This document shows positions 594 through 28,478 of a stretch of DNA of 29,894 nucleotides, piece after piece. The notes beneath the pieces were generated by a model that did not search any database, was not told the DNA's origin, and saw nothing but the letters and a program-made list of their open reading frames with translations. How positions within the stretch are numbered: the first letter of the stretch is position 1; every line of letters starts with the position of its first letter. The stretch is from a virus, in IMG/VR virus record IMGVR_UViG_3300046411_000603, positions 1 to 29,894 of that record; one strand, written 5' to 3'. A program made the position numbers and the translations under genes.

Positions 594-873
594 TTTGTCT
601 GAAATATCGAGGTTTTTTGTTTATATGCTATCATCTGTTAGATGTCGCACCATGCGGGGGTGGTTCAAACACAACTCAGAAATAATTTCTATAATGTCTT
701 ATCCAATCTTCCCCGACTCGAACCTGATTGATCAGAATTCGAAACATATGTGTGCAATTTTCTCATAATCATCATATTATAACGTGTATATAATTAAATA
801 GTTCAGCAGTATTTAGCAGACAAATGTGTAGAATACCCGTAACTAGGTATATAATAAGATATAAGGAGTCACA
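594..873. promoter_or_regulatory. Divergent non-coding control region
   Basis: About 280 bases separate the minus-strand gene pair from the plus-strand operon beginning at 874. The right half is very AT rich and holds several TATA-like runs: TTATAA around 778, a TGTATATAAT run at 784-794, and TATAAT at 850-855. It also holds a TGTGTA element at 825-830 resembling the putative late-promoter motif. I found no tRNA, no terminator and no convincing open frame here. It probably carries promoters for both directions. Confidence 0.5.
822..836 (+). promoter_or_regulatory. Near match to putative late promoter, upstream of sigma operon
   Basis: AAATGTGTAGAATAC lies 38-52 bases before the ATG at 874. 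It shares TGTGTA and the trailing TAC with the five TTTGTGTA elements found in the structural block, but has AAT in place of TTT. A separate sigma70-like TATAAT sits at 850-855, so this operon may be read both by host sigma70 and by the phage sigma it encodes. Confidence 0.4.
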
Positions 874-1053
874 ATGACAAAGAAAATTAAAACTGATGTA
901 AGATTTAAGTCTACAGCACAATTAGAGAAACAGGTAGCCAAAGAACTATCTATTCCTGACCCAGAAACACCTTTAGTGTTTGATTCAAAGGGTGGCCTGT
1001 GGGGTAGCGATAACTTCAAAGAGGAAGATGAATTAGAAAATGGAAATTCCTGA
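874..1053 (+). CDS. 59-residue hypothetical protein upstream of the sigma gene
   Basis: An open frame of 59 residues starting at ATG 874, preceded by a strong AAGGAG site at 863-868 with ideal spacing. It begins MTKKIKTDVRF and ends with an acidic tail (EEDELENGNS). The stop overlaps the next gene's start by 14 bases, so the two are probably translationally coupled. It is the first gene of the sigma/packaging operon. No family is recognised. A role tied to the sigma factor, such as co-activator or anti-sigma, is only a guess from adjacency. Confidence 0.7.
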   Translation: MTKKIKTDVRFKSTAQLEKQVAKELSIPDPETPLVFDSKGGLWGSDNFKEEDELENGNS

Positions 1054-1585
1054 AGGATTAGACAAAGAATTAGTAATAGAGACCATCACTTCTATTGCTA
1101 AAAAGATTTCACACAAATACGTATTCGCTTCGTACCAAGCTGATGACATAGAACAAGAAGCATTTTTGATTGGGATGGAGTGCCTAAGTAGATATGACAA
1201 AGTTAGGCCGCTTGAGAACTTTTTGTACACCCATATGAACAATAGATTGAAGAACTTTAAAAGAGATAATTATTATAGATACGATTATGGTAACGCCCAG
1301 AAAGCACAAGAGAGAAAAAGAAGTATTCTCGAACCAATGAGCTTTGAGCATCTGTATACATTGTGTGATAAAGAAGAAGTAGTAAACCAAGCACACTTCA
1401 AAGAGATGTTAGACTTAATAGATGAAAAGCTACCATCCAATATGAGAAAAGATTATTTAAAATTAAGATCGAACTCTTTCCTGCTAAAAAAGAGAAAGTC
1501 AGACATTATATCTGTTATAAGGTCTATTTTAGACTCAGAGTACTCAGAAATAGACCCAGAGGGGGACAGTGATGAAGAAGGGTAG
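1040..1585 (+). CDS. Phage RNA polymerase sigma factor, gp55-like (late transcription)
   Basis: A 181-residue protein. Residues 27-78 match the layout of sigma-70 region 2: a helix containing DDIEQEAFLIGMECLSRYD, then ENFLYTHMNNRLKNFKRDN. This is the core-polymerase-binding and -10-recognising part (compare the general pattern D-IQEA---L--A---YD-----F--Y----IRN-I). Residues 131-164 (LPSNMRK...SDIISVIRSIL) could be a short helix-turn-helix resembling a region 4 remnant, and the C-terminus is acidic. Size and architecture resemble phage late sigma factors of the T4 gp55 class, which direct host polymerase to late promoters. The recurrent TTTGTGTA element in the gaps between structural genes is a natural candidate target. 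Region 2 is clear by eye; the late role is inference. Confidence 0.72.
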   Translation: MEIPEGLDKELVIETITSIAKKISHKYVFASYQADDIEQEAFLIGMECLSRYDKVRPLENFLYTHMNNRLKNFKRDNYYRYDYGNAQKAQERKRSILEPMSFEHLYTLCDKEEVVNQAHFKEMLDLIDEKLPSNMRKDYLKLRSNSFLLKKRKSDIISVIRSILDSEYSEIDPEGDSDEEG

Positions 1586-2381
1586 ATTTTCAGTGGAGGA
1601 GAAAGCATTTATCGAGGCGAATGCCGAGGTTCTTTCCCCTGAAGCAATTGCCATTGAATTAGACAGAGACCCTGATTCTATTCGCGACTGGATAGGCAAA
1701 CACGTTGGGTTTTCTCCAAAGCAAAAAAAAGAGGCTGAAGTTGCCAATGAATTAAAGTCGAAGCCTTATTACAAAGACTTGAATAATCAATTCTCTCCAG
1801 AAGAACTGCAAATGTTCGAATTTCATTTCAAAAAAATGTGGAGTCAGTTTCGTGACGATGTTTTTCATACTGAAGAAATTCAGATCATTGATACGATCAA
1901 GTTGGAGATTCTAATGAATAGGATTTTAAAATCTCAACGATCCAATCAACAAGACATAGCAGAGACGGAGCGGGTGATTCTAGCTGAGAAAAACAGAGAC
2001 ATCGACCAAAGAGACATGGATTTAGTTATCAACTTAGAAAGGCAAGTGGCGATTCTAAGAGCATCCCAAGAAACTCTCTCAAAAGACTACAAGGATTTAC
2101 AGGCTCGAAAAGCTACTATGTTAAAAGACTTGAAAGGAACCAGAGAGCAGCGGATAAGAGCGATTGAGGACTCAAAGCAAACATTCGCATCAATAATCAA
2201 AGAAATAGATAGCAATCCTATGTTTCGAAACAAGATAGGTCTCGACATGGAAAAAATGAGACTAGCTCACATCAAGGAGAAAGAACGACTTAGTGAGTTT
2301 ACAAAATATGAAGACGGAATGGTGGACCAGCCGTTTTTAACACCGGAAACAGTAATCAGAGAGGACAAGGACATTGAATAA
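1572..2381 (+). CDS. Probable terminase small subunit (TerS)
   Basis: About 269 residues. I chose ATG 1572 over the GTG three bases earlier because the purine-rich AGAGGGGG run lies just upstream. Residues 5-45 form a helix-turn-helix-like segment (SVEEKAFIEANAEVLSPEAI...DRDPDSIRDWIG) typical of DNA recognition. Residues about 65-120 carry the helical pattern FSPEELQMFEFHFKK, and about 125-215 form a long charged coiled coil suited to ring oligomerisation. This HTH plus central helical oligomerisation layout is that of small terminase subunits, which bind phage DNA and load the motor. It overlaps the sigma gene by 14 bases, and TerL lies downstream in the same operon. An alternative is another DNA-binding coiled-coil protein; no sequence motif is unique to TerS. 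Confidence 0.6.
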   Translation: MKKGRFSVEEKAFIEANAEVLSPEAIAIELDRDPDSIRDWIGKHVGFSPKQKKEAEVANELKSKPYYKDLNNQFSPEELQMFEFHFKKMWSQFRDDVFHTEEIQIIDTIKLEILMNRILKSQRSNQQDIAETERVILAEKNRDIDQRDMDLVINLERQVAILRASQETLSKDYKDLQARKATMLKDLKGTREQRIRAIEDSKQTFASIIKEIDSNPMFRNKIGLDMEKMRLAHIKEKERLSEFTKYEDGMVDQPFLTPETVIREDKDIE

Positions 2382-3360
2382 AAAAGCTTTAATATTTGGA
2401 GTATCAGGCCAAGACGGATCATATCTAGCAGAACTTTTACTAGAAAAAGGATACGAAGTGACGGGAGTCACCAGACGAGTTAGTGTAAGCACTACTGAGA
2501 GAATTAACCATATCCTGCCAAAAATTAATATCGCAGAGGGTGATATTACGGATGGCTTTTCTGTCAACAAGCTAATATCGGAATATGAGCCAGATGAAAT
2601 TTACAATCTTGCTGCTCAATCTCACGTTGGTACGAGCTTCAAGCAACCAAGTTTAACTTGGGATATTACCGCTGGTGGCGTATTGAACATTCTTGAGGCG
2701 ATCAGATACTCTCCGCGAAAAGATGACATAAGATTTTATCAAGCAAGCAGCAGTGAAATGTTTGGTAAAAACTATGACGAAATAGCAATGAAAAAATACC
2801 AAGACGAAAACACTGAGTTTATACCTCAAAGCCCTTATGCCATTGCCAAGCTAGCGGCTCACCATCTTGTGAGAAATTACAGAGAGGGTTACGGAATCCA
2901 CGGAAGTTGTGGGATTTTGTTCAATCACGAAAGTGAAAGACGAGGAGAAAACTTTGTTACCCGCAAGATTACCAAGTGGATTGGGGAGTTTGTTAGAAGT
3001 GGACGTGACCCAGAATTTCCAAACCTCCGATTGGGCAACTTAGACGCGAAAAGAGATTGGGGTCACGCAGAAGATTATGTAAACGCCATGTGGCTTATGC
3101 TACAGCAAGAAAAGTCTGACGATTATGTTGTTGCCACGGGTGAGACGTACTCAGTCAGGGATTTCCTAGATGCGGCTTTTTCTAGGGTGGGAATCGAAGA
3201 TTGGAGCGATCTTGTAGTAATTGACCCTAGATTTTATCGCCCAGCAGAAGTAGATCACCTTTTAGGGATTCCAATTAAAGCAGAAAAGTGCTTGGGTTGG
3301 GAAAGAAAGGTCAGCTTTAATGATTTAGTACACAGAATGGTAGATAGCGATTTAGAATGA
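2374..3360 (+). CDS. gmd: GDP-mannose 4,6-dehydratase
   Basis: A 328-residue extended short-chain dehydrogenase that converts GDP-D-mannose to GDP-4-keto-6-deoxymannose, the precursor of GDP-fucose, GDP-rhamnose and related sugars. The NADP-binding Rossmann motif is at residues 9-15 (GVSGQDG). NLAAQSHV is at 78-85, the SSSEMFG active-site segment at 125-131, and the catalytic YAIAK at 155-159. The family hallmarks RRGENFVTRKIT (189-200) and GNLDAKRDWGHAEDYV (221-236) are present. The length is slightly short of cellular enzymes. The usual NHESPRRG is NHESERRG here, a Pro to Glu change at residue 187. The start is TTG with GAGG/AAGG upstream, overlapping the previous stop by 8 bases; no ATG fits the Rossmann start. 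No fcl or other sugar gene is visible nearby. It is an auxiliary metabolic gene inside the packaging operon. Confidence 0.93.
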   Translation: MNKKALIFGVSGQDGSYLAELLLEKGYEVTGVTRRVSVSTTERINHILPKINIAEGDITDGFSVNKLISEYEPDEIYNLAAQSHVGTSFKQPSLTWDITAGGVLNILEAIRYSPRKDDIRFYQASSSEMFGKNYDEIAMKKYQDENTEFIPQSPYAIAKLAAHHLVRNYREGYGIHGSCGILFNHESERRGENFVTRKITKWIGEFVRSGRDPEFPNLRLGNLDAKRDWGHAEDYVNAMWLMLQQEKSDDYVVATGETYSVRDFLDAAFSRVGIEDWSDLVVIDPRFYRPAEVDHLLGIPIKAEKCLGWERKVSFNDLVHRMVDSDLE

Positions 3361-3641
3361 AAAGAAACTACAATGACCCAGCTTATAAGAATTTTCGTAA
3401 TGAAGTCCTAAAAAGAGACAATTTTACGTGTCAAATGTGTAATAATAACAATAGAAGGACTTGGAAGGCAGTTCACCACATTATAAAGTGGTCTTCCTCG
3501 GCTAGTCTTCGGTACGATCCTGACAACGGAATAACACTTTGTCATCAATGTCATAAAGATGTGACCGGAAAAGAATCGCACTACGTATCTTACTTTAACG
3601 AAAAAGTTAAAATATCAAAAAATAAGAAAGGTAAAAAATGA
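3357..3641 (+). CDS. HNH endonuclease
   Basis: A 94-residue small nuclease with a full HNH/zinc layout: C25-x2-C28, the His pair H40-H41 in AVHHIIKW, N57 in DPDNGITLC, then C62-x2-C65-H66. Such proteins make single- or double-strand cuts with a divalent metal. The start codon overlaps the dehydratase stop (ATGA), indicating translational coupling. HNH proteins encoded beside terminases (as HK97 gp74) assist DNA packaging. Its place a few genes before TerL fits that role, but a homing endonuclease or other nicking function is possible. The tail is strongly basic (KISKNKKGKK). Confidence 0.85.
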   Translation: MKRNYNDPAYKNFRNEVLKRDNFTCQMCNNNNRRTWKAVHHIIKWSSSASLRYDPDNGITLCHQCHKDVTGKESHYVSYFNEKVKISKNKKGKK

Positions 3642-4012
3642 AAAATTTCTTTACAAGCAGTCTAGACCAATCTTCGTCTGATACTTTTGACGCTCAGATC
3701 GACGCATTGAAAGCAGGAGAGTCTGTTTATCTAGAGGGCGTTGACAGCGACCGATATATGGAATTGTACGAAAAATACAAAAAAGAAAGAAACAACGGAA
3801 AGCTAAGATTTGTCAGAGATTCTCGACCAACAGAGTTGGATGTCTTCAACGAAGAAAAAACAGAAGAAGCCAAGGCACCTGTCGAGGTAGTCGTGCCAGC
3901 CCCAGCACCAGAACCAGCACCAAAGTCAGAAGCAGAGCAATGTCAAGAAACCTGCGAGTCTGAAGAGTGCGAAGATGGGTGTGTAGATTTCGATGGAGCA
4001 AGCGATACTTAA
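3638..4012 (+). CDS. Acidic Pro/Ala-rich, Cys-rich C-terminus hypothetical protein
   Basis: A 124-residue protein with three visible parts. A small N-terminal domain (residues 1-65) is followed by a Pro/Ala/Glu linker (VPAPAPEPAPKSEAE). An acidic tail with four cysteines (CQETCESEECEDGC) ends the protein and could bind a metal or form disulfides. No family is recognised. It overlaps the HNH stop (ATGA) and hands over to the ERCC4-type gene by a TAATG junction, so it is probably co-translated with both nucleases and might be an adaptor for them. Confidence 0.65.
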   Translation: MKNFFTSSLDQSSSDTFDAQIDALKAGESVYLEGVDSDRYMELYEKYKKERNNGKLRFVRDSRPTELDVFNEEKTEEAKAPVEVVVPAPAPEPAPKSEAEQCQETCESEECEDGCVDFDGASDT

Positions 4013-4653
4013 TGGCGAAATCTAAACCAAAATACACGGTCATAAAAGACACCAGAGAGCAAGACGGTTGGTTTTTCTCTCCTTACGATAGGTGTGAAGG
4101 TATGGAAGTTGCCACAATGAAAACTGGCGACTATACCATCAAGGGCTGTGAAAACTTGGTTTGTGTCGAAAGGAAGGGGTCTGTAACTGAAATAGCAACA
4201 AATCTAGGTAAAAAGAAGAAAGCTTTTCAGGCAGAGATGGAAAGAATGAAAGATTTTGATTTTCGTTTCATGCTGCTAGAATTTTCTGCTTCAGATGTTA
4301 TAGACTATCCATTTAGCTTGCTTAGTCCTGAAGAGCGTGTTTTGTATGATTATTATGAAATAAAGGATATTCGTAATTTTTTTAATGCTTATGAAGATAT
4401 ATACAATAAGCCAGCAGAGTCTTTTAGTTTACCTAAATTTAAAAGATTTGAGGTTGTTGAGCAAACTAGGATAACAGGAAAATACTTAATAAAGTCGCTA
4501 ATGGAAATAAGCATAAGATACAATGTTAATGTTATTTTTTGTGACAATAAGAATAACGCTTTCTTGATTTGCAATAGCATATTTAAAAGGCTTTCCGACC
4601 TTTTTGATACCTATGATAGAGAGTCAGGAAAAGCAAAAATTTTTAAGTTTTAA
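4012..4653 (+). CDS. ERCC4-type (XPF-like) nuclease
   Basis: About 213 residues starting at ATG 4012 in a TAATG stop/start overlap; an upstream in-frame start would give an unrelated basic leader with no ribosome site. The ERCC4 nuclease core is visible: DTREQ at residues 13-17, GDY at 39-41 and VERKG at 52-56, the signature of XPF/Mus81-type structure-specific endonucleases. The acidic residue usually following ERK-x3 is Glu (ERKGSVTE), not Asp. The C-terminal half (residues 85-213) is mostly unlike known domains, with no HhH motif evident. Phage ERCC4 nucleases are thought to process recombination or replication intermediates. Beside HNH and TerL it could trim branched DNA before packaging, which is inference. 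Confidence 0.75.
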   Translation: MAKSKPKYTVIKDTREQDGWFFSPYDRCEGMEVATMKTGDYTIKGCENLVCVERKGSVTEIATNLGKKKKAFQAEMERMKDFDFRFMLLEFSASDVIDYPFSLLSPEERVLYDYYEIKDIRNFFNAYEDIYNKPAESFSLPKFKRFEVVEQTRITGKYLIKSLMEISIRYNVNVIFCDNKNNAFLICNSIFKRLSDLFDTYDRESGKAKIFKF

Positions 4654-4667
4654 AAACGGGAGAGCGT

Positions 4668-5306
4668 ATGAAAGGCGATAGTCGTCCAGAGTGGAAAATG
4701 CACCACGATGAAACTGAACAGGTTCACGATTACTCCCTATCTATAAAGAATAGAAAGGTATACCTCCACTCTTCTTACGGTTCGGATGAAGGCGACCCGG
4801 GTACAGATTGGAGAATGGCTAATACTTTTATTAAAAATCTTCATATTCTTGAAAATTCTAGTGATAACGCTATAGAAATTCATCAATTCAATATTGGTGG
4901 AGATGAAGAGGCTGGCTATGCTATATACGACGCGATAAAATGCTCTCCATGTCCTATTACCGTTATTACCCACGGTGTGGCGGCTTCTATGGGCAGTATT
5001 ATTCCTCAAGCGGCAGACAAGAGGGTTACCATGTCTAGCTGTTGCTGGTTGATACATAAGGGGTCTACAGGCATAGGGCACAGAGACAGGATACCAGCCA
5101 AGCAGTGGGCGAAATGGGAAGATTATTGTGATAAAAGGATGATGTCGATTTACGCTGAGGCTTGTAGTAATTCTGAGGCTTGGTCGGGGAAAGACACAAC
5201 AACCATAATGTCATCTATGAATAAAATGTTAAACGCGAAAGGTGACTGGTTTATGAACGCTACAGACGCAGTACATTACGGGTTTTGCGACGAGGTGTAC
5301 GAATGA
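4668..5306 (+). CDS. ClpP-like serine protease (S14 family)
   Basis: A 212-residue ClpP-fold protease. The nucleophile Ser is at about 107 in GVAASMGS (the ClpP G-x-A-A-S-M pattern). The catalytic His is at about 130 in WLIHKG. The acid is probably the Asp in KGDWFM near 192, followed by the family's end motif ATDAVHYGFCDEVYE. A GGGAG ribosome site lies 5 bases before ATG. In many phages a ClpP-like enzyme is the prohead maturation protease. Here it precedes TerL rather than following the portal, and a second protease-like domain is fused to the scaffold, so its substrate is uncertain. It overlaps the TerL start by ATGA. Confidence 0.85.
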   Translation: MKGDSRPEWKMHHDETEQVHDYSLSIKNRKVYLHSSYGSDEGDPGTDWRMANTFIKNLHILENSSDNAIEIHQFNIGGDEEAGYAIYDAIKCSPCPITVITHGVAASMGSIIPQAADKRVTMSSCCWLIHKGSTGIGHRDRIPAKQWAKWEDYCDKRMMSIYAEACSNSEAWSGKDTTTIMSSMNKMLNAKGDWFMNATDAVHYGFCDEVYE

Positions 5307-7285
5307 TAACGGACTTGCAAAAATTAGAAGATGCTTGGTTGGGGATAGACGTAGATGAGTCAACTATTTTCAATCCTATGAAGTTTATATCTGATTGCAA
5401 TGATAGAGAAGAGTTGCTAGAGCGTGTAGCTTGGCTGATGATGCAACCACAGTATTTTTCTTTCGCTTGTAAATACATACTAAATATTGAAATATCCCCA
5501 TTTCAAGCACTTACCTTAGAAGAGTTATGGAACAGAAAGTTTCCATTATTGATTGGTACTCGTGGTATGGGTAAGTCGTTCTTGCTTTCTGTTTATCCGC
5601 TATTGCGGGCATTGTTTATGCCTAGAAGGAAAATAATCATTGTAGGTGCGGCCTTTAGGCAGTCCAAGGTTTTGTTTGAGTACATGGATACTATTTGGAA
5701 AAATGCACCAGTATTGAGAGATTTATGTGACAGCAAAAGTGGCCCAAGAAGAGATGTTGACAGATGTGTTATGCACATTAATCAAAGTACTATAACTTGC
5801 TTACCTTTAGGTGACGGCAGCAAGATTCGTGGTCAGCGTGCTAATGATATTATAGCAGATGAATTTGCGTCTATTCCTAGAGAGATTTTTGAAAATGTTG
5901 TTGCTGGTTTTGCTATAGTCGCGTCATCGCCAATAGAAAAGGTTAAAAGCAAAGCTAAAGCAAAAAGAGCTAAACAACTAGGAATAAAACTTAAAGAAGA
6001 AGGTAATGGAATTCAAGAAAAATCAAACCAGATTGTGCTGTCTGGTACGGCTTATTACGACTTTAATCATTTTGCTGATTACTGGAGACGCTACAGAGCT
6101 ATAGTAAACAGCAGAGGCTCTAGGTCTAAACTAAAAGAGGTTTTTGGAAATGAGCCACCAGAAGATTTTGATTGGAGTGAGTACTCAGTTATAAGGATAC
6201 CAGTAGAGAAATTAGCTGATGGATTCATGGATGAAGGTCAGGTAGCTAGAGCAAAGGCAACAATTCACTCCGGTATATACAATATGGAATACGGTGCTTG
6301 TTTTACAACAGACAGTCAAGGGTTTTTCAAAAGGTCTTTGATCGAGTCATGTACGACATCTAAGGAAAACCCAATAAAACACCTGTCTGGAGACGTTTTC
6401 TTTGAGTCTCAACTGAGGGGTAGCTCAAGCAAAAAATATGTTTATGGTGTTGATCCAGCTTCAGAGGTTGATAACTTTAGTATAGTTGTGCTGGAAGTAA
6501 ATCCAGACCACAGAAAGGTTGTTCATTGTTGGACTACAAACAGACAGCAGCACAAAGACAAGCTAAAAATGAAAATAGTCGATGAGGACGATTTTTACTC
6601 GTATTGTGCTAAAAAAATAAGACAGCTAATGAAAGTCTTCCCATGCTCTGAGATAGCCCTAGATGCACAGGGTGGCGGTATCGCGGTAATGGAAGCTCTG
6701 CATGACAAAGATAAGATAGGCGAGGGAGAGCTACCTATTTGGCCCGTAATAAACGAAGATAAAGAATCTGATACTGACGACCATCCCGGTCTGCATATTT
6801 TGAAAATGTGTCAGTTTGCAAACGCTGGTTGGTTGGCTGAGGCTAATCACGGCCTAAGAAAAGATTTTGAAGACAGAAGAGTGCTATTCCCATACTTTGA
6901 TTCTATCAGCTTGGGGCTTTCGGCAGAAGAAGACAGTGCCACTGGTAGGGTTTATGACACGCTTGAAGACTGCGTTATGGAAATAGAAGAATTAAAAGAC
7001 GAGCTTTCAATGATTGTTATGACCCAAACATCAACGGGGCGTGAAAGATGGGACACTCCAGAAGTTAAGGTTGCGGCAGGAAAGAAAAACAGAATGAGAA
7101 AAGATAGGTATTCGTCTTTGATCATGGCTAATATGTCTGCTAGGTCAATATCTACTGAAAAAGTTATGGTAGACCATATGACTCAAGGTGGATTTGCTGT
7201 AGTTGATTCTCAATCAAACTTTGAAAAAGAGAAGTTATATCACGGCCCAAACTGGTTTACTGAAAAAATCAACAATTGGGAGTAG
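5303..7285 (+). CDS. Terminase large subunit (TerL)
   Basis: 660 residues from ATG 5303, chosen because GAGG lies 7 bases upstream and the codon forms an ATGA overlap with the protease stop. This is the packaging motor ATPase and nuclease. The N-terminal ATPase shows Walker A GTRGMGKS (85-92) and Walker B IIADEF with D186-E187. The RNase H-like nuclease begins near 378 with VYGVDPAS (D384) and IALDAQGGG (D454). A Lys-rich insertion (about 212-232) separates the Walker B region from the coupling segment. Length is within the usual range, slightly long. The terminase pair is split by six genes (gmd to ClpP), unlike the common adjacent TerS-TerL order. Confidence 0.95.
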   Translation: MITDLQKLEDAWLGIDVDESTIFNPMKFISDCNDREELLERVAWLMMQPQYFSFACKYILNIEISPFQALTLEELWNRKFPLLIGTRGMGKSFLLSVYPLLRALFMPRRKIIIVGAAFRQSKVLFEYMDTIWKNAPVLRDLCDSKSGPRRDVDRCVMHINQSTITCLPLGDGSKIRGQRANDIIADEFASIPREIFENVVAGFAIVASSPIEKVKSKAKAKRAKQLGIKLKEEGNGIQEKSNQIVLSGTAYYDFNHFADYWRRYRAIVNSRGSRSKLKEVFGNEPPEDFDWSEYSVIRIPVEKLADGFMDEGQVARAKATIHSGIYNMEYGACFTTDSQGFFKRSLIESCTTSKENPIKHLSGDVFFESQLRGSSSKKYVYGVDPASEVDNFSIVVLEVNPDHRKVVHCWTTNRQQHKDKLKMKIVDEDDFYSYCAKKIRQLMKVFPCSEIALDAQGGGIAVMEALHDKDKIGEGELPIWPVINEDKESDTDDHPGLHILKMCQFANAGWLAEANHGLRKDFEDRRVLFPYFDSISLGLSAEEDSATGRVYDTLEDCVMEIEELKDELSMIVMTQTSTGRERWDTPEVKVAAGKKNRMRKDRYSSLIMANMSARSISTEKVMVDHMTQGGFAVVDSQSNFEKEKLYHGPNWFTEKINNWE

Positions 7286-7299
7286 TTTGTGTATATGTA
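7286..7299 (+). promoter_or_regulatory. Putative late promoter TTTGTGTA before portal
   Basis: TTTGTGTATATGTA begins right at the end of the TerL gene, about 50 bases before the portal start at 7348. It is one of five copies of the same octamer in the long plus-strand gaps. No -35 hexamer is evident. Confidence 0.55.
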
Positions 7300-9500: not shown

Positions 9501-9512
9501 TTTGTGTAATAC
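9501..9512 (+). promoter_or_regulatory. Putative late promoter TTTGTGTA before protease/scaffold
   Basis: TTTGTGTAATAC ends only 20 bases before the start codon at 9533. The leader would be so short that a separate downstream -10 would collide with the ribosome site. This supports the octamer itself being the -10-type element. Confidence 0.55.
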
Positions 9513-9532: not shown

Positions 9533-11041
9533 ATGAATATAAATATATATGAGCAAGAAATATCTGACGGCATAGCTGATCAGATTTCTAATAATTCTAT
9601 ATATTGCCAGTCTATAGCAAAAACATCTGAGGTTCTTTTCCCTGAGTTAAAATCTTTAACTGACGAGGAACTTCAAGAGATTGGCTGTAGCATGGCTAAT
9701 GATAAAGGTCAATTTGATTTATACAATCTTGAGTCTGTCTTAGTTAGCACTGGCTGGAACAAGAATGATGATGTTTTCGACCGAAAAGAACTATGGCTTG
9801 CTAGGGAAACCCCCGAAGACAAGCCTTTTAATTTTATGCACAATGAAAAAGATATCATTGGACATATAACCGGCAATAGGGTTGTAGATAAGTCAGGCAC
9901 GGAAATTAACAGCGAAGATGACCTGCCTGAAGATTTCGACATTCTCACAAAAGCCGTTATTTATAAAGAGTGGAGTGATTTGGAGCAAAGGTCTAGGATG
10001 AGTAAAATCATTTCCGAGATCGAGGAAGGTAAGTGGTTCGTTTCTATGGAATGTTTATTTCCAGCTTTTGACTACGCTATGATAAGTCCAGATGGAAAAA
10101 AGTCTGTCTTGGAACGGAATGAGGCTTCAGCGTTTTTAACTAAACACCTAAGAGCCTATGGTGGCGAAGGAAAGTACAACAACTATAGAGTTGGCAGAAT
10201 GTTACGAAACTTATCGTTCTCTGGTAAAGGCTTAGTTTCAAACCCTGCCAATCCTGAAAGTCTAATACTTAGCAATGAATCTTTTAGTGAGTCCAAATCA
10301 ATTATTTTAACAACATCCTCGATTAAGGAGAGTTACGACATGTCAACCGAATTAGAGAATCAAGTCTCAATTCTTAAACAGGAGCTATCTGAAGCAAAAG
10401 TTGCTAATGAAGCCCTTAAAGAAAAGGTAGTAGCAGAGCAAAAAGCTGAGTTCGAATCACAGATTTCTAGCTTGGAAGCTTCTCTTGCTGAAAAACAAGA
10501 AGAGATCGCAAAAGCTACTGAGCAAGTAGAAGAGTTTAAGTCCTCAATTGAGAGCTTGAATGAGTCTTTGGCTAAAAAACATAAAGAGCTTGAAGACAAA
10601 GAAGAAGCAATGATGGAAAAAGACAAGAAGCTCGCAATGATGAAAAAGAAAGAAGCTATGATGAAGCGAAAAGCCCAGCTTGAAGAAGCCGGTCTAGAAG
10701 CTGAAGAAGCTGAAGCTACAATTGCCGACTTTAGTGAAGTTGATGACGATACTTTTGATAAAGTTGTCGCATTAATGAAAAAGAAAGCCATTAAGCACGG
10801 TGATAAAGAAGAAGAAAAAGAAGAAGCGACGATGAAAAAGGAAGAAGAAGACGACAAGGGCAAAGCGTCTAACGAAGAAGAAGCTCTTGACGTAGAAGCT
10901 GAAGCTATTGAAAGCTCAGAAGCTTCCTTGCAAAACCTAGATAACCAAGAAGAAGAAGCAGATGCACTAAGAGCTTACGCTTCAAACTGGTTTGAAACAA
11001 GCGTATTAAAATCAACTCAAAATCTAAAAGAGGGAGAATAA
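9533..11041 (+). CDS. Prohead protease-scaffold fusion
   Basis: 502 residues from ATG 9533, which has GGAG 9 bases upstream; ATG 9518 has none. Residues 70-260 resemble phage prohead proteases. There is a VFDRKELWLA strand, a His in FNFMHNEKDIIGHITG (H103), and a Ser in KWFVSMECLF (S171), spaced like the His/Ser pair of prohead proteases. Residues 270-410 are a long coiled coil rich in Glu/Lys/Ala, then runs of charged residues (MMKKKEAMMKRK, KEEEKEEATMKKEEEDD), typical of a scaffold that fills the procapsid and is cleaved out. It directly precedes decoration and capsid genes. An internal in-frame start at 10340 probably yields the scaffold alone. The scaffold part is clear; the protease assignment rests on motif spacing and position. 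Confidence 0.75.
   Translation: MNINIYEQEISDGIADQISNNSIYCQSIAKTSEVLFPELKSLTDEELQEIGCSMANDKGQFDLYNLESVLVSTGWNKNDDVFDRKELWLARETPEDKPFNFMHNEKDIIGHITGNRVVDKSGTEINSEDDLPEDFDILTKAVIYKEWSDLEQRSRMSKIISEIEEGKWFVSMECLFPAFDYAMISPDGKKSVLERNEASAFLTKHLRAYGGEGKYNNYRVGRMLRNLSFSGKGLVSNPANPESLILSNESFSESKSIILTTSSIKESYDMSTELENQVSILKQELSEAKVANEALKEKVVAEQKAEFESQISSLEASLAEKQEEIAKATEQVEEFKSSIESLNESLAKKHKELEDKEEAMMEKDKKLAMMKKKEAMMKRKAQLEEAGLEAEEAEATIADFSEVDDDTFDKVVALMKKKAIKHGDKEEEKEEATMKKEEEDDKGKASNEEEALDVEAEAIESSEASLQNLDNQEEEADALRAYASNWFETSVLKSTQNLKEGE
10340..11041 (+). CDS. Nested in-frame scaffold protein (internal start)
   Basis: Inside the protease-scaffold gene, ATG 10340 lies 9 bases after a perfect AAGGAG (10325-10330) and in the same frame. 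It falls exactly at the boundary between the protease-like domain and the coiled coil. Translation from here gives a 233-residue protein beginning MSTELENQVSILKQELSEAK, an almost pure coiled-coil scaffold. Lambda does the same with Nu3 inside gene C, making an excess of free scaffold over protease fusion. The site is seen in the sequence; that it is used is inference. Confidence 0.6.
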   Translation: MSTELENQVSILKQELSEAKVANEALKEKVVAEQKAEFESQISSLEASLAEKQEEIAKATEQVEEFKSSIESLNESLAKKHKELEDKEEAMMEKDKKLAMMKKKEAMMKRKAQLEEAGLEAEEAEATIADFSEVDDDTFDKVVALMKKKAIKHGDKEEEKEEATMKKEEEDDKGKASNEEEALDVEAEAIESSEASLQNLDNQEEEADALRAYASNWFETSVLKSTQNLKEGE

Positions 11042-12560: not shown

Positions 12561-12591
12561 TGTGAAATTAGCAACTTTCGGGTTAATACTA

Positions 12592-12621
12592 AGCCATCCA
12601 ATCAGTTGGGTGGCTTTTTTA
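12592..12621 (+). terminator. Intrinsic terminator after major capsid gene
   Basis: A 10-base-pair stem, AGCCATCCAA with TTGGGTGGCT (one T-G wobble), closes a TCAG tetraloop and is followed by TTTTTT. This is the clearest terminator in the window. It ends the portal-to-capsid transcription and separates it from the fibre unit, whose putative promoter begins 16 bases later. Confidence 0.88.
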
Positions 12622-12636
12622 TTGACTAAAGTTTTT

Positions 12637-12651
12637 TTTGTGTATATATAC
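12637..12651 (+). promoter_or_regulatory. Putative late promoter TTTGTGTA before the fibre unit
   Basis: TTTGTGTATATATAC lies between the capsid terminator and the ribosome site (AAGGAG, 12662-12667) of the 12675 gene. A promoter is required here because the upstream transcript is terminated, which makes this the strongest functional argument for the motif. Confidence 0.62.
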
Positions 12652-12961: not shown

Positions 12962-15900
12962 ATGGCATTAAAAGTAAGTGATAGAATAAGACAGAACACT
13001 CTGAGTACTGGTGTTGGTGGGATTTCTTTAGTTGGTGACCTGCCGGGCTTTAAAAAGTTTAGTGACGTTTTATCCAGTGGTGACATAACTTACTATGTCA
13101 TAGAAGAAAATGATAAATTTGAAGTGGGTGTTGGAATTTACGGTTCTAACAACCTTGAGCGTTTTCACGTATTGTCTAGCTCAAATAGTGGGAACAAAAT
13201 AGAATTGGGTGGTAGTGGTGCAGTTTTCGTAACCTACCCAGCAGATAAAAGTGTCATAAGAGACTTAGAGTCGCAGATTGTTGTTGGTGCTTCTGGGCTT
13301 GTTTTTAGTAATGGAACTAAGTTCAAAGAAGCTAAAATTGTAGAATTAACAGATGTAAACCTACAGGGTACTCCATCAAGCCAGTACCTTATAGATTTTA
13401 ACACAACAAATAAAAGTTTGGTTATTGGAGATTCTTCTGGCCCATCTAACTCAAGAAATACATTAATAGGCTACGGTGCTGGTAGCGGAATAACTTCAGG
13501 AACTTCAAACACTAACATTGGTACTGACGCAGGGCACAAGAATCAGGAAGGTTTCAAGAATGTAAGCATTGGAGATTTAGCGGGTCCGTCAGACGCAAAC
13601 GCTAGTATATCCGTATCTAGAACGGTAAATGTAGGATACCAAGCTGGTGAAAAATCTAGAGATGATAGCGTTAATATTGGCTTTGAGGCTGGTGCAGCCG
13701 CTTATTCTAGGGGGCACGTTTCAATAGGTTCTTTTTCTGGCTCTGGTGTTGGTAACTACGCATTTGTTGGTGGTTACGAAGCGGCAAACAATCATGAGGG
13801 CGATTACTTGATAGCTATTGGCTACAGGTCGGCAAAGGACGGTGGTGGCGAATCCTCTGTGTGGATAGGTAAAGAAGCAGGTAAAAGCACTTCTTCTGCT
13901 ATAAATTCTATAGGATTGGGCGAGTTGTCGGGCGAGGGTTCTTCTGGTAATAACTCTATATACTTGGGTAAAAAGTCGGGCAAGGACAACACTTCAAATG
14001 ATATGCTTTTTATCGCAGACAATCAGCCTTCTTCCGAAGGCACTTTAATAAAAGGCGATTTTAGCACAAAAAGGTTGGCGGTAGGTAAATCTGACGTAAC
14101 TCTTTCTGACACATTTTATGTTGGGGTAAATTCTGCGAGCGATAATGGTATTGTGGTTCAAGGTGCTTCTTTGCAGTCTTCTGACTTAACTCAGTGGCGT
14201 GCATTTGACAGTCAATCTATAGCTTCGGTTAGTAATTCAGGTACTATTTTAGCTAATGGTGTAGCGGCCAGTGGTCAAGGTCTGAGATTGGATCGCTCTA
14301 CACCTGCGGTTACAGATAGTGTACTTTACAACGTGGCTGGTTCTTTGTACTGGAGCGGGTCTTCTTTAAGCGATCAAATTTCGTATGCTTCTGGTCAAGC
14401 CATTATTAACGAGTCTGATATAGCTTATATTTCTGGGGTAGTTGATAATAACAATTCTGGCGATACATACGTTTCAGGGGTTGCCGTTTATAGCTCAGGT
14501 CAAGCAATTGCCAACGAAGTTGACATAGCCTACGTTTCTGGTGTAGCGGCTGGTTCTGCCTATGACGACACTTACGTTTCGGGTATCGCGGTTTATAGCT
14601 CAGGCCAAGCGGTTGCCAATCAGTCCAGCATTTCTAGCAATACATCAAATATATCTACGAATACATCAAATATCTCTATTAATAGCGGTAGAATAATCTA
14701 CGCCTCTGGTCAGGCTATACAAAACGAAATTGACATAGCCTACGTTTCTGGTGTCGCTGCTCACGGACATGAAGTTAGCGAGGCTGATCTGACTTATGTT
14801 TCTGGTATAGCTGTTTACGCTTCTGGTAATGTACATGATGACACGTATATTTCTGGTGTGGCAGCCTACGCCTCTGGTATTTTAGTTGATGGTGGAACCT
14901 TGATACCTCATTCATCTCTGATTGTAGGCAGTGTTAATGGCGTAGCACTAGCTAAGGGTGCAAACAACTTCCCAGTAACTATAACTCAACAAGACAATAG
15001 TTCTGGTGGTGCGTACTACATAAGACTTAGAGACAACGACACAGACAATATAGTTTTTGGTGCTACGGATTCAGACGCATTTCAAATTACCGCTAGTGGC
15101 GAAGGAAGTTCTGATGCTGAAAATATATTTAAGTTTTCTTCTGCCGCCAATGACAACCAGTTGGTGTTTGGTGATAATAATGTTCCAACAAAGATACTAG
15201 GACAGACTGTATCTATAGATTCTCCTCTGACAGTGGTTCCCGATGCAAACTTTACTGGAACAGCACATGCCAGCGGTATAAGTGCGAGCGGTTTGGTGCT
15301 GGGTTCAACTGTTACAACTAACGTACTTATTTCCGCAACCGCAGCGGCTTCCCAGTCAGCGAATATAGCAGAGTTTAAAGCTAGTGACGGGGTTGTTGTC
15401 GCACAGGTTGCTCCAGACGGAAGTATTGCAACGAGCGGTAATATTTCATGTAGTGGTAATATCAGTTCTGTTGATGGTAACTTCAGTGGTGAGATTATCA
15501 CTCCGAAGGTATTTGCAACCTCTGGTGGTACAGGGATTACACTTAACCTTAACGACATTAGATTTTCTCGCGTAGGTCAAGGCGAGCAGATGATAATGGA
15601 GACCGCTACGTTCAGGCCAATAAGTAATGACGTAGTAACTCTAGGCACATCAGCAAAGAGATGGTCTGATGTCTATTCTGTCGATGGGGGCTTTAGTGGT
15701 GATCTCACTGTTGGCGGGACGTTAACAAGTGCTGGAGAATTTCCGTTTGTATCGGGTGTCGCTAACTACGCCTCTGGAAACACTATAGCTACGCAAGCCA
15801 TCGCGAACTACGCCTCTGGCGTTGTTAATGGCGGTGTTGCGACGTTAGCTTCTGGTATAATTCAGGCTGGCGGGTCACAGCGAGTTTACAACGTAGGTTC

Positions 15901-18900
15901 TGAAGGCGATGCTAACACTGAGTATCTTGAAACTAGCTGGGACACTGACGTAGCCAAAATAGAGGCTAAGGCTACCGGAACTGGTGTCGAAAGAGCCTTA
16001 ACGCTAACGTCTGAAGGCATTACTAAGCTAATAGGAGCTTACACTCGTATATATTCTGGGACGAACCTCAACATCAATTGCTTCGGCACTACTACGCAGT
16101 TCAATAGTAATCTACAACCCGTTACAGACAACACTAGGTACTGCGGCATAGAAGGTAAACGCTGGTCAAGTGTAGGTTCAGTTGATGGTGACTTTAGTGG
16201 CACAGTCAGCGGAGTAAGGGGCTTCTTCGAAACTTCAAACACTACAGACCCAACGCTTACCGTCACATCTGCCGCCTCACAAACGGCCAACCTTCAGGAA
16301 TGGCTCGCTAACAACGATGTTGTTGTCGCACAGGTTGCTCCAGACGGTAGTATATCTAGTAGTGGAAATATTTCGGCAAGCGGGACTGTTTCAGCCAACA
16401 CTATCGCCAGCGACGGCACTAACTACTTATCAATTGATGCAGGTGCAAGCACTTCTACGGTACGCTTCTTGTTTAATGGCTCACAGAAGATGCTCATCGG
16501 AAATACGTACATCAGGTCTAACGCTGATGACTCAATGACTTTAGGTATATCAAGTAGGCGATGGTCTAACGTCTACTCAGTTGGTGGTGACTTCAGCGGC
16601 ACCGTTGACGCTAGCGTCGTTAACGCTAGTGGTGTTAATGCGAGCGGATTGTTGTTGCACAGTCACGTACCAACGGTAACCACGAACAAGCTGTACAACG
16701 ATGGCGGGACTCTGACGTTCAACGGTTCTGCTGTTGGCGGTGGTGGTACGGACGCTTACACTTCTGGCGTGGCAACCTACGCCTCTGGAAATACGATAGC
16801 TACGCAAGCCATCGCGAACTACGCCTCTGGCGTTGTTAATGGCGGGGTCGCGACGTTAACTTCTGGTATAATTCAGCAAACTTTCCGAATTTATGGCAGT
16901 GGCGATTCCACTAATGGCGAATGGCTTGAAATATCGAATAACGGAACAGAATTTCAGATTAACTCATTAGCTGCTGGAGACGGAACCGTTCAAGCAGTAG
17001 GTATTGGTCGTTCAAATGCTATGTCCATGATTCACAACGGCTCAGGTGGAACCAAATCAAGGTCGATATACCCTCAAGTAAATAATACTTATAGTTGCGG
17101 CATAGCAAACCTTCGTTGGTCTATTCTTAATTCAATAAACGGTAGCTTTACTGGCTCTGTAAGTGGAGCAAGGGGTTTCTTTGAGTCTGCAACTACTACA
17201 GACTCCGCACTTACTATCACCTCTGCCGCTTTACAAACGGCCAACCTTCAAGAATGGCGTGCGAGTGACGATGTTGTTGTGGCACAGGTTGCTCCAGACG
17301 GAAGTATAGCTACAAGTGGAAATTTGAGTGTTAGTGGCGACATCACAGCAGTCAACATTAAAAGCACATTTTCTCACGCTGACCCTCCACGTATCTTCCT
17401 CGACTCTGCTGCATCTCATGGATATCTGTATGGATTAAACAGCACTGCTGCTGTGCGGTGGAATCATCAAGCCGTATTATTCTACCAGAGGCTGCAACCC
17501 GCAAGCACAGGCACAGTCGATATAGGTACAGACGCTCTTAGGTTCAACAAGTATTACGGCGTAGATGGCTCATTCAGCGGCACCGTTGACGCTAGTGTCG
17601 TTAACGCTAGTGGTGTTAATGCGAGCGGATTGTTGTTGCACAGTCACGTACCAACGGTAACCACGAACAAGCTGTACAACGATGGCGGGACTCTGACGTT
17701 CAACGGTTCTGCTGTTGGTGGTGGTAGCAGTGTTGACGCTTACACTTCTGGCGTGGCAACCTACGCCTCTGGAAATACGATAGCTACGCAAGCCATCGCG
17801 AACTACGCCTCTGGCGTTGTTAATGGCGGTGTTGCGACGTTAGCTTCTGGTATAATTCAGGCTGGTGGCTCACAAAAGGTATACAACTCTGGGTCAGATG
17901 GCGATACTGATAGCGAGTCTTTAACAATATCCAGCGATGGAACTACTTACGATATATTTTCTACCCCTACAGGGGCGGGCAGTCACAGAAGAATTGACAT
18001 TGGTGGAATGACTGGTGTTGCTTATCGAGGTCTAAGATTAGATTATGAAAACTCATTTTTTGACTGGCAATACAATAACGCTACTAGATTCAAGGTTGAT
18101 GCTAACACCTGCACTATTAGCACAACAACCACGGTAACAAACGATATTAGGTCAGACGATATTAGACCTAACACAGACAATACTTACGATAACGGGCTTT
18201 CAAGTCATCGTTGGGCTAATACATTTGGAGTTGACGCTAATTTTAGCGGTTCGGTCAGCGGAGTGAGAGGCTTCTTCGAAACTTCAACCACTACAGACCC
18301 AACGCTTACCGTCACATCTGCCGCTTTACAAACGGCCAACCTTCAGGAATGGCTTGCTAACGACGATGTTGTTGTGGCACAGGTTGCTCCAGACGGTAGT
18401 ATCGCTAGTAGTGGAAATGTGAGTGTTAGTGGAGACATAACAACTAGGGGTGACATTGTATTTCCAACACTCAGCAATGGTGGGTTCCAAACTAATGCTG
18501 GGCAACAAATCGTCGTTCAGCCTTATGGTGGAACAACAAGTTTTGTTTTTGATAGGTATTTTAATTATAGCTATAAATCCGTTAGACCCATAGCTGATAA
18601 TAATCATGACATTGGTACTAATACTGTAAGGTATAAAAACGGTTATTTCTATAATCTTTATGCTACAGATGAACTACATGCTAGTGGAGTTCAAGCAAGT
18701 GGAATGTTGTTGCACAGTCACGTACCAACGGTAACCACGAACAAGCTGTACAACGATGGCGGGACTCTGACGTTCAACGGTTCTGCTGTTGGTGGTGGTG
18801 GTACGGACGCTTACACTTCTGGCGTGGCAACCTACGCCTCTGGAAATACGATAGCTACGCAAGCCATCGCGAACTACGCCTCTGGCGTTCTTACTGCTGG

Positions 18901-20257
18901 TCCGTCTTCTGGTATTCCATTTTATGGAGACGCTGGTCAACACGGAGCGATTACTACAAGCGACAACCTTGTTTTCGATAGTGGCAACGGAAATTTACAG
19001 GTTGGTGGTAATATTGGCATAGGAAACTCTAATCCTACAGATAGATTAGTTGTTGCAGGTAACTTATCTACGAATCACATAAATTATACGACGAACGCTT
19101 TCAGAGTAACGCATAATTCTAATGACGTATTCTTAAAATTATATAGAAGAGCAGAGCAAAGCAATGGTGATGTTAGCATTAGAACTGGAGGCGATTCATA
19201 TTTTAACGGTGGGAGCGTGGGCGTTGGAATTACTAGCCCCGAAGCTACACTTCACGCGGTTGCTGCAAACGCCACAGATGTTGGTATTATAGCACAAGGA
19301 GCTTCGGCACAAACCGCGAACCTGCAAGAGTGGCAAGCAAATGACGATGTTGTTGTCGCACAGGTTGCTCCAGACGGTAGTATCGCTAGTAGCGGTAATA
19401 TTGGGGGTAGCGGAACTATAACCGCTGGCGATTTACTTGTTAACGCCGGTGGTACTCAAAAAATGTACAAACTGGGTGCTGTAGGCGACACTGATACTGA
19501 ATATCTTGAGACCACAACTGACAGCACCATATACACTATATTCTCAAAGGCTACCAACGGAGGTACAGTCCGAGAGCTAAGAGTAGGAAACGCGGACGCT
19601 TACTTTAGAACCACAGCTACGGGTGGTATTTTTGCTATTGGTGGAACGACGAAGCTGAACATTGGGGCGAACTTTACCTACTTTGGTTCAGCCTACGTCT
19701 TGCCTGATGCAGATGACTCCAGAACGCTAGGTCGTGAAGGTAGTCGCTGGAAAAGCGTTGGAGCAGTAGATGGTGACTTTAGTGGTTCCGTTAACGCTAG
19801 TGGTTCCGTTAACGCTAGTGGGATTCAGGCAAGTGGGCTATTGTTGCACAGTCATGTACCAACGGTAACCACGAACAAGGTGTACAACAATGGTGGAACT
19901 CTAACTTGGGATGGTCATTTTGCTGCTTCATCCAAGTCGTTCCTTGTTGATCACCCAACAAAGAAAGGAGCCAAACTACAGTACGCTTCTTTGGAAGGCC
20001 CAGAACATAGTGTCTACGTAAGGGGTCGTGTTACTGAAAATATTATCGAACTTCCAGATTACTGGGTTGGATTGGTTGACGAAGAAAGTATTACAGTTCA
20101 GTTAACAGCTAAAGGACATCCACAGCCAAATATGTTTGTCAGCAGTATTGTAAATAACAAGGTTTACATCAGTTCTGACGTAGAGGTTGACGCTTTCTAT
20201 AATGTTTACGCAGAAAGAAAAGACGTTGATAAATTGGAGGTGGAAATATGGCAGTAA
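12962..20257 (+). CDS. Giant modular tail fibre (receptor-binding) protein
   Basis: 2431 residues, the largest gene here. Residues about 160-350 are 'NTLIGYGAG / SIGDLAG / NIGFEAG' repeats like the left-handed beta-roll of YadA-type heads. Residues about 470-650 are Y-x-SG-x-A repeats (DDTYVSGVAVYSSGQAI). From about 660 to 2320 modules alternate: a 'TANLQEW...VVAQVAPDGSI' unit (starts near 800, 1100, 1420, 1780, 2115), diverse beta cassettes beginning QKVYNSGSDGDTD-like and ending RWSNVYSVDGDFSG-like, and a joint HSHVPTVTTNKLYNDGGTL. The last 110 residues, from SFLVDHPTKKGAKLQYASLE, form a C-terminal domain seen in other phage fibres. It probably trimerises and binds the host surface. Several joints are nearly identical at DNA level. 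No signal peptide or lytic motif is seen. Confidence 0.88.
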   Translation: MALKVSDRIRQNTLSTGVGGISLVGDLPGFKKFSDVLSSGDITYYVIEENDKFEVGVGIYGSNNLERFHVLSSSNSGNKIELGGSGAVFVTYPADKSVIRDLESQIVVGASGLVFSNGTKFKEAKIVELTDVNLQGTPSSQYLIDFNTTNKSLVIGDSSGPSNSRNTLIGYGAGSGITSGTSNTNIGTDAGHKNQEGFKNVSIGDLAGPSDANASISVSRTVNVGYQAGEKSRDDSVNIGFEAGAAAYSRGHVSIGSFSGSGVGNYAFVGGYEAANNHEGDYLIAIGYRSAKDGGGESSVWIGKEAGKSTSSAINSIGLGELSGEGSSGNNSIYLGKKSGKDNTSNDMLFIADNQPSSEGTLIKGDFSTKRLAVGKSDVTLSDTFYVGVNSASDNGIVVQGASLQSSDLTQWRAFDSQSIASVSNSGTILANGVAASGQGLRLDRSTPAVTDSVLYNVAGSLYWSGSSLSDQISYASGQAIINESDIAYISGVVDNNNSGDTYVSGVAVYSSGQAIANEVDIAYVSGVAAGSAYDDTYVSGIAVYSSGQAVANQSSISSNTSNISTNTSNISINSGRIIYASGQAIQNEIDIAYVSGVAAHGHEVSEADLTYVSGIAVYASGNVHDDTYISGVAAYASGILVDGGTLIPHSSLIVGSVNGVALAKGANNFPVTITQQDNSSGGAYYIRLRDNDTDNIVFGATDSDAFQITASGEGSSDAENIFKFSSAANDNQLVFGDNNVPTKILGQTVSIDSPLTVVPDANFTGTAHASGISASGLVLGSTVTTNVLISATAAASQSANIAEFKASDGVVVAQVAPDGSIATSGNISCSGNISSVDGNFSGEIITPKVFATSGGTGITLNLNDIRFSRVGQGEQMIMETATFRPISNDVVTLGTSAKRWSDVYSVDGGFSGDLTVGGTLTSAGEFPFVSGVANYASGNTIATQAIANYASGVVNGGVATLASGIIQAGGSQRVYNVGSEGDANTEYLETSWDTDVAKIEAKATGTGVERALTLTSEGITKLIGAYTRIYSGTNLNINCFGTTTQFNSNLQPVTDNTRYCGIEGKRWSSVGSVDGDFSGTVSGVRGFFETSNTTDPTLTVTSAASQTANLQEWLANNDVVVAQVAPDGSISSSGNISASGTVSANTIASDGTNYLSIDAGASTSTVRFLFNGSQKMLIGNTYIRSNADDSMTLGISSRRWSNVYSVGGDFSGTVDASVVNASGVNASGLLLHSHVPTVTTNKLYNDGGTLTFNGSAVGGGGTDAYTSGVATYASGNTIATQAIANYASGVVNGGVATLTSGIIQQTFRIYGSGDSTNGEWLEISNNGTEFQINSLAAGDGTVQAVGIGRSNAMSMIHNGSGGTKSRSIYPQVNNTYSCGIANLRWSILNSINGSFTGSVSGARGFFESATTTDSALTITSAALQTANLQEWRASDDVVVAQVAPDGSIATSGNLSVSGDITAVNIKSTFSHADPPRIFLDSAASHGYLYGLNSTAAVRWNHQAVLFYQRLQPASTGTVDIGTDALRFNKYYGVDGSFSGTVDASVVNASGVNASGLLLHSHVPTVTTNKLYNDGGTLTFNGSAVGGGSSVDAYTSGVATYASGNTIATQAIANYASGVVNGGVATLASGIIQAGGSQKVYNSGSDGDTDSESLTISSDGTTYDIFSTPTGAGSHRRIDIGGMTGVAYRGLRLDYENSFFDWQYNNATRFKVDANTCTISTTTTVTNDIRSDDIRPNTDNTYDNGLSSHRWANTFGVDANFSGSVSGVRGFFETSTTTDPTLTVTSAALQTANLQEWLANDDVVVAQVAPDGSIASSGNVSVSGDITTRGDIVFPTLSNGGFQTNAGQQIVVQPYGGTTSFVFDRYFNYSYKSVRPIADNNHDIGTNTVRYKNGYFYNLYATDELHASGVQASGMLLHSHVPTVTTNKLYNDGGTLTFNGSAVGGGGTDAYTSGVATYASGNTIATQAIANYASGVLTAGPSSGIPFYGDAGQHGAITTSDNLVFDSGNGNLQVGGNIGIGNSNPTDRLVVAGNLSTNHINYTTNAFRVTHNSNDVFLKLYRRAEQSNGDVSIRTGGDSYFNGGSVGVGITSPEATLHAVAANATDVGIIAQGASAQTANLQEWQANDDVVVAQVAPDGSIASSGNIGGSGTITAGDLLVNAGGTQKMYKLGAVGDTDTEYLETTTDSTIYTIFSKATNGGTVRELRVGNADAYFRTTATGGIFAIGGTTKLNIGANFTYFGSAYVLPDADDSRTLGREGSRWKSVGAVDGDFSGSVNASGSVNASGIQASGLLLHSHVPTVTTNKVYNNGGTLTWDGHFAASSKSFLVDHPTKKGAKLQYASLEGPEHSVYVRGRVTENIIELPDYWVGLVDEESITVQLTAKGHPQPNMFVSSIVNNKVYISSDVEVDAFYNVYAERKDVDKLEVEIWQ
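15764..15865 (+). repeat. Fibre joint repeat, partial copy
   Basis: About 100 bases encoding NYASGNTIATQAIANYASGV and the following VNGGVATLASGIIQ. The DNA nearly matches the 3' part of the long joint repeats at 16592-16876 and 17573-17860, including synonymous positions. Confidence 0.85.
16261..16370 (+). repeat. 'VAQVAPDGSI' fibre cassette, representative copy
   Basis: About 110 bases encoding a TANLQEW...DVVVAQVAPDGSI unit. The invariant DNA core GCACAGGTTGCTCCAGACGG recurs in this gene near 15401, 16328, 17282, 18377 and 19358, and with a few changes near 23390 in the second fibre gene. Confidence 0.85.
16592..16876 (+). repeat. Fibre joint repeat, long copy 1
   Basis: 285 bases running from TTCAGCGGCACCGTTGACGC to the ATAATTCAG end, encoding the FSGTVDASVVNASGV, HSHVPTVTTNKL and ATYASGNTIATQAI stretches. 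It differs from copy 2 by only scattered bases and a three-base length change in the glycine run. Confidence 0.9.
17573..17860 (+). repeat. Fibre joint repeat, long copy 2
   Basis: 288 bases, nearly identical to copy 1 about 980 bases upstream. The main difference is GGTGGTAGCAGTGTTGACGC in place of the GGTGGTGGTACGGACGC stretch. The flanking cassettes are unrelated at DNA level. Confidence 0.9.
18705..18889 (+). repeat. Fibre joint repeat, copy 3 (core)
   Basis: About 185 bases matching the core of copies 1 and 2, from TGTTGTTGCACAGTCACG to CTACGCCTCTGGCGTT. Both ends then diverge abruptly. A shorter, more diverged version of the same core is at about 19839-19908. Confidence 0.88.
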
Positions 20258-24915: not shown

Positions 24916-24927
24916 TTTGTGTATTAC
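24916..24927 (+). promoter_or_regulatory. Putative late promoter TTTGTGTA before connector genes
   Basis: TTTGTGTATTAC lies in the 48-base gap after the S74 fibre, 34 bases before the ATG at 24962. A reading frame can be opened at TTG 24917 inside this motif, but the AAGGAG site at 24950-24955 shows that translation starts at 24962. Confidence 0.55.
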
Positions 24928-28464: not shown

Positions 28465-28478
28465 TTTGTGTATAGTAC
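28465..28478 (+). promoter_or_regulatory. Putative late promoter TTTGTGTA before the tail tube gene
   Basis: TTTGTGTATAGTAC sits 43 bases before ATG 28522, with AAAGGAG at 28508-28514. A private promoter would make sense for a high-copy tail protein. Confidence 0.55.

Follow-up and report, generated by a model that had tools for sequence, protein, structure and literature searches.

A predicted sigma factor and the short signal TTTGTGTA most likely form a pair that recurs, as far as sequence comparison can tell, across a large unstudied phage family. We analyzed IMGVR_UViG_3300046411_000603, a linear virus record from an uncultured aquatic phage; its full length of 29,894 nt (29.9 kb) is referred to here as the window. 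Our preferred reading, which we consider probable, is that the protein encoded at 1040-1585 is a late sigma factor that binds the host core RNA polymerase via region 2 and guides it to late promoters made up of a single element, and that its own operon starts at a related box. This would give an abundant family of uncultured phages a sigma-promoter pair that can be tested, and make late transcription units readable from sequence alone via the motif. Related capsids are encoded in at least 598 IMG/VR stretches, and no close cultured relative of the family was found in the collections searched.

In the list of open reading frames, two divergent genes are followed by a positive-strand operon that extends from 874 to the end of the large terminase gene at 7285 (Table 1), so that the sigma gene heads this packaging operon, as had been claimed in the sequence-only reading. 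The order of genes is the 59-aa protein, sigma, a 269-aa protein, and epimerase-like, HNH, ERCC4-type, Clp-like and terminase genes; except for sigma and terminase, these names were assigned by us from reading the translations. Downstream of the operon lie the portal gene (7342), gene 9518, a decoration-like gene, the capsid gene (11559), fibres and tail genes. The 269-aa protein (1572-2381), encoded between sigma and terminase, resembles DNA-binding proteins at its N-terminus, probably contains a coiled coil and is possibly the small terminase subunit.

Table 1. Positions of the sigma operon, its upstream boxes and the predicted late promoter elements in the window
Feature	Position	Strand	Remarks
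Weak box AACGTGTATATAAT / GTGTATATAAT	781-794	+	Late-motif variant overlapping TATAAT (789-794); upstream of sigma operon
Second weak box AATGTGTAGAATA	823-835	+	51 nt before gene 874; kept in L004, a relative with an 83% identical sigma
Conserved small acidic protein, 59 aa	874-1053	+	First gene of operon; overlaps sigma start
Late sigma factor (predicted), 181 aa	1040-1585	+	ATG start; region 2 (residues ~9-80) and C-terminal helical part without recognizable region 4
Rest of sigma/packaging operon	1572-7285	+	Ends with large terminase (5303-7285); gaps of at most 14 nt
Late promoter element TTTGTGTA (predicted)	7286-7293	+	Before portal gene
Late promoter element TTTGTGTA (predicted)	9501-9508	+	Before gene 9518; SD-supported start at 9533
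Intrinsic-terminator-like hairpin	12591-12616	+	After capsid gene
Late promoter element TTTGTGTA (predicted)	12637-12644	+	Directly 3' of the terminator-like hairpin behind the capsid gene
Late promoter element TTTGTGTA (predicted)	24916-24923	+	Before gene 24962
Late promoter element TTTGTGTA (predicted)	28465-28472	+	Before gene 28522

The 1040-1585 product is a sigma-70-family protein. Its residues 21-77 matched the Pfam Sigma70_r2 model at 29.4 bits (cut-off, 24 bits; E = 6.8e-7), and no Pfam region 4 model was matched. Three near relatives were extended with IMG/VR homologues and aligned into a 44-member family, in which every member matched Sigma70_r2 and none (0/44) matched region 4. 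This supports the earlier description of a 181-residue protein with a clear region 2 and at most a trace of region 4. When only the C-terminal part was used as a profile, no sigma factor was found in PDB; minimal phage sigma factors do not need a region 4. The segment NRLKNFKR, which sits in the presumed region 2.3-2.4 stretch, is invariant across the family, in parallel with the invariant core of the late motif.

An AlphaFold model built from the 44-sequence alignment had a mean pLDDT of at least 90 over residues 11-70, with the C-terminal third modeled as three helices. It was used in place of a model from four sequences only, which was poor. The PDB neighbors of the model included sigma region 2 domains, each weak by E-value, and its neighbors in a viral structure library included phage sigma factors, among them one of a T4-like phage, but no match in the fold search reached E ≤ 0.001. 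We count the latter result against the preferred reading.

Exact copies of TTTGTGTA were found six times in the window, five on the positive strand and one on the negative strand. All five positive-strand copies are located in intergenic gaps preceding late genes, and the sole negative-strand copy falls within the capsid gene. Given that gaps comprise about 1.5% of the window, the chance of finding five out of five copies in gaps is about 7e-10. No exact positive-strand copy occurs inside the operon remainder (1572-7285), and the total number of one-mismatch matches in the window was not above chance. The signal in the window is one of position, not of number. A literature search on TTTGTGTA in combination with phage found no promoter paper among the matches listed.

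We evaluated the distribution of the motif in 161 related loci, a set that includes overlapping and closely related loci. There, TTTGTGTA was found 194 times in forward gaps and 12 times in reverse gaps, with gaps accounting for 8% of bases. When duplicate contexts were removed, 105 forward and 6 reverse copies remained in gaps and 23 in coding sequence. With no prior choice of sequence, TTGTGTAT, which is shifted by one base, and TTTGTGTA were the top intergenic octamers in the 161 loci, above Shine-Dalgarno. With its five positive-strand gap copies in the window and its recurrence in these loci, the late promoter motif is stronger than first claimed. Many of the sites are orthologous and, therefore, not independent, which counts against the preferred reading. 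Weight-matrix sites preceded 94% of the gene-9518 orthologues, 86% of the gene-12675 orthologues, 7/7 of those of gene 28522 and 63% of the portal genes, as opposed to 0% for the TerL, MCP, Clp and decoration orthologues; the late motif is absent within operons. In early regions (eight 20-kb segments, 160 kb in total, from six related genomes), the motif was found before only 1 of 54 genes that follow a gap.

At 113 sites, the SD-supported start codon was always at least 27 nt away from the motif, as expected of a core promoter. This floor suits a transcription start 6-8 nt downstream, as mapped for gp36 of phage phiEco32 (PMC8948821). The same spacing argues against TTTGTGTA being a post-transcriptional or DNA-processing signal rather than a promoter, as do its strong orientation specificity, the presence of related boxes before the sigma operon and the copy at 12637, which directly follows the terminator-like hairpin; we consider that explanation the most improbable of those weighed here. 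No -35 element common to the groups of motif sites was found. An upstream element in the pooled logo (TTT at -31, A at -23) was rejected because it came mainly from the gene-9518 group, whose flank is orthologous, and was shared inconsistently by the others.

The sequence-only reading had noted a TATAAT and a near match to the motif upstream of the sigma operon and proposed an early-to-late positive loop. Both elements were recovered, the former within the box at 781 and the near match there and at 823; they are weak, and both boxes are conserved in the nearest relatives. In the window, the box preceding the sigma operon scores low (PWM, 5.2), which counts against the preferred reading, and either of the two boxes could be the one that acts. 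Another TATAAT, at 850-855, was dismissed as a -10 element because its start would coincide with the Shine-Dalgarno sequence. Among nonredundant relatives, GTGTAT was present upstream of sigma in 32 out of 36 cases compared to 1 out of 36 on the reverse strand, and shuffles averaged 3.4. This bias supports self-regulation and leaves the proposed loop plausible. The box has the full consensus TTTTTTGTGTATAG in one clade and the form TTGGTGTATAATA in others. In many relatives the GTGTATA box overlaps a TATAAT-like sequence, so that a host- or middle-type start could precede self-amplification. A loop that the host polymerase starts and the phage factor carries on has been inferred for phage 7-11 by homology with phiEco32, the sigma gene of that phage group being assigned both host and phage promoters (PMC4331800); a similar loop may operate here. 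In many relatives a further element, TGTGTGCA (749-756 in the window), is found again 19-32 nt upstream of the box of the sigma operon.

According to the preferred reading, region 2 of the sigma factor would bind the host core RNA polymerase and steer it to late promoters that have the consensus TTTTTTGTGTAT(A/T) and no -35 element, whereby the portal, head and tail transcription units would be switched on. The sigma operon itself, from the small acidic protein and sigma through the terminase, would start at the related GTGTATA box. We detected no gene for a multisubunit RNA polymerase, which counts in favor of this reading. The pairing of sigma with the motif is strongly suggested by these comparisons, and the presence of a second sigma gene in most large genomes keeps it short of proof.

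That second sigma-70 protein was encoded outside the late cluster in six out of seven records of at least 90 kb, which suggests a sigma cascade. Examples of about 160 aa are found at L173:634-1113 (negative strand) and L174:706-1185 (positive strand), beside single-strand-binding-like genes. The second sigma, whose gene lies in the opposite genome half, could be the factor that reads TTTGTGTA, with the 1040 sigma serving another promoter class. Its frequency in large records is in line with such a role, as is the helix-turn-helix-like C-terminus recognized by eye in the two members examined. However, the late promoters have no common -35 element, which fits a sigma factor without region 4. The region around the second sigma gene has almost no copies of the motif, and a motif box precedes the operon of the 1040-type sigma. 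Moreover, the 1040-type sigma was present in all 12 records searched, and one 95-kb record showed it as the only sigma. We consider it unlikely that the second sigma reads TTTGTGTA. That the motif is read by the 1040 sigma, and neither by the second sigma nor by a host factor, is our inference, as are its binding to core polymerase and its timing.

The closest known factor appears to be phiEco32 gp36. Its PHROG, phrog_1740, was the best match of the sigma family. It was hit by 43 of 44 members, with E = 1.1e-10 at best, and the window sigma matched it with E = 6e-6, the match being confined to region 2. The gp36 protein is described as a sigma factor without region 4 whose promoters consist of the single element tAATGTAtA, and phiEco32 has a small accessory protein, gp79 (PMC8948821). 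The two systems are thus alike in having a sigma-70-family protein that lacks region 4, single-element promoters and a small protein; the placement of single-element promoters before late genes is, in our case, predicted from the DNA sequence. They differ in the consensus, in the location of the sigma gene, which heads the packaging operon here and lies in a middle cluster in phiEco32, and in the small protein, which here is acidic and adjoins sigma. Because the direct profile match between the sigma family and gp36 was weak, we suggest that the window sigma works like gp36 and belongs broadly to the same PHROG, not that the two are close kin.

The 1040 sigma also resembles T4 gp55, a protein of about 185 aa with region 2 and without region 4 that serves late genes through a -10-like element without a -35 (PMC2988020, PMC7892883). 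It could, like gp55, act in a replication-coupled manner, activated by a gp45 sliding clamp and assisted by a coactivator similar to gp33, a part that the small acidic protein might play. Apart from the matching size and the sole region 2, a sigma of a T4-like phage was the best-probability neighbor of our model in the viral structure library, and T4 late promoters likewise consist of a single -10-like element (PMC2988020). The profiles of the sigma family and of gp55 also matched weakly, with an hhalign probability of 61 over columns 11-63. The gp45 clamp domain was found in none of six clade contigs (94-148 kb, perhaps incomplete) but in all three T4-type controls, and no bacterial-type clamp was found. 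Inspection of the alignment revealed no C-terminal clamp-binding tail in the sigma family; marine gp55 proteins in the comparison alignment likewise had no obvious tail. Finally, the family does not match the gp55 PHROG, phrog_234. A gp55-like mode of action is thus very unlikely in our view, and the label "gp55-type" given to the protein earlier is abandoned. The 1040 protein seems to be another sigma that lacks region 4 and uses only one promoter element, and it apparently does so with no sliding clamp of the T4 type.

The major capsid protein has 333 residues, as originally reported, and belongs to phrog_2522, the family of Bacillus phage G. The combination of such a capsid with a sigma factor had been called unusual; this did not hold, since phage G encodes a sigma factor, gp3, near its terminase gene, as in the window. 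Unlike the window sigma, in which region 4 is undetectable, gp3 carries a genuine region 4 (Sigma70_r4, 37.4 bits). The TTTGTGTA pattern was not found in the late cluster of phage G.

In most relatives examined, homologues of the small acidic protein, 45-98 aa in length, are encoded directly upstream of sigma. Their N-terminal part is conserved and their end is acidic. The window protein had no Pfam match, and its comparison with PDB gave a weak match to AQ_328 (E = 0.0017). It is a candidate sigma partner; the roles considered are those of a partner, an anti-sigma factor or a coactivator. A more speculative proposal, to which we give some weight while doubting it, is that the sigma with region 2 only and the acidic mini-protein encoded next to it form a clamp-independent, two-protein sigma. 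This would be the late specificity factor of the large family of uncultured phages and act within a two-sigma cascade, and the mini-protein would replace region 4 or displace the host sigma.

Two other genes of the window deserve mention. A gene similar to those for sugar-nucleotide epimerases/dehydratases (2374-3360, TTG start) forms part of the packaging operon, and many relatives have homologues of it. Farther downstream, a fibre-like protein of 2,431 aa (12962-20257) contains repeated YASGNTIATQAIANYASG units.
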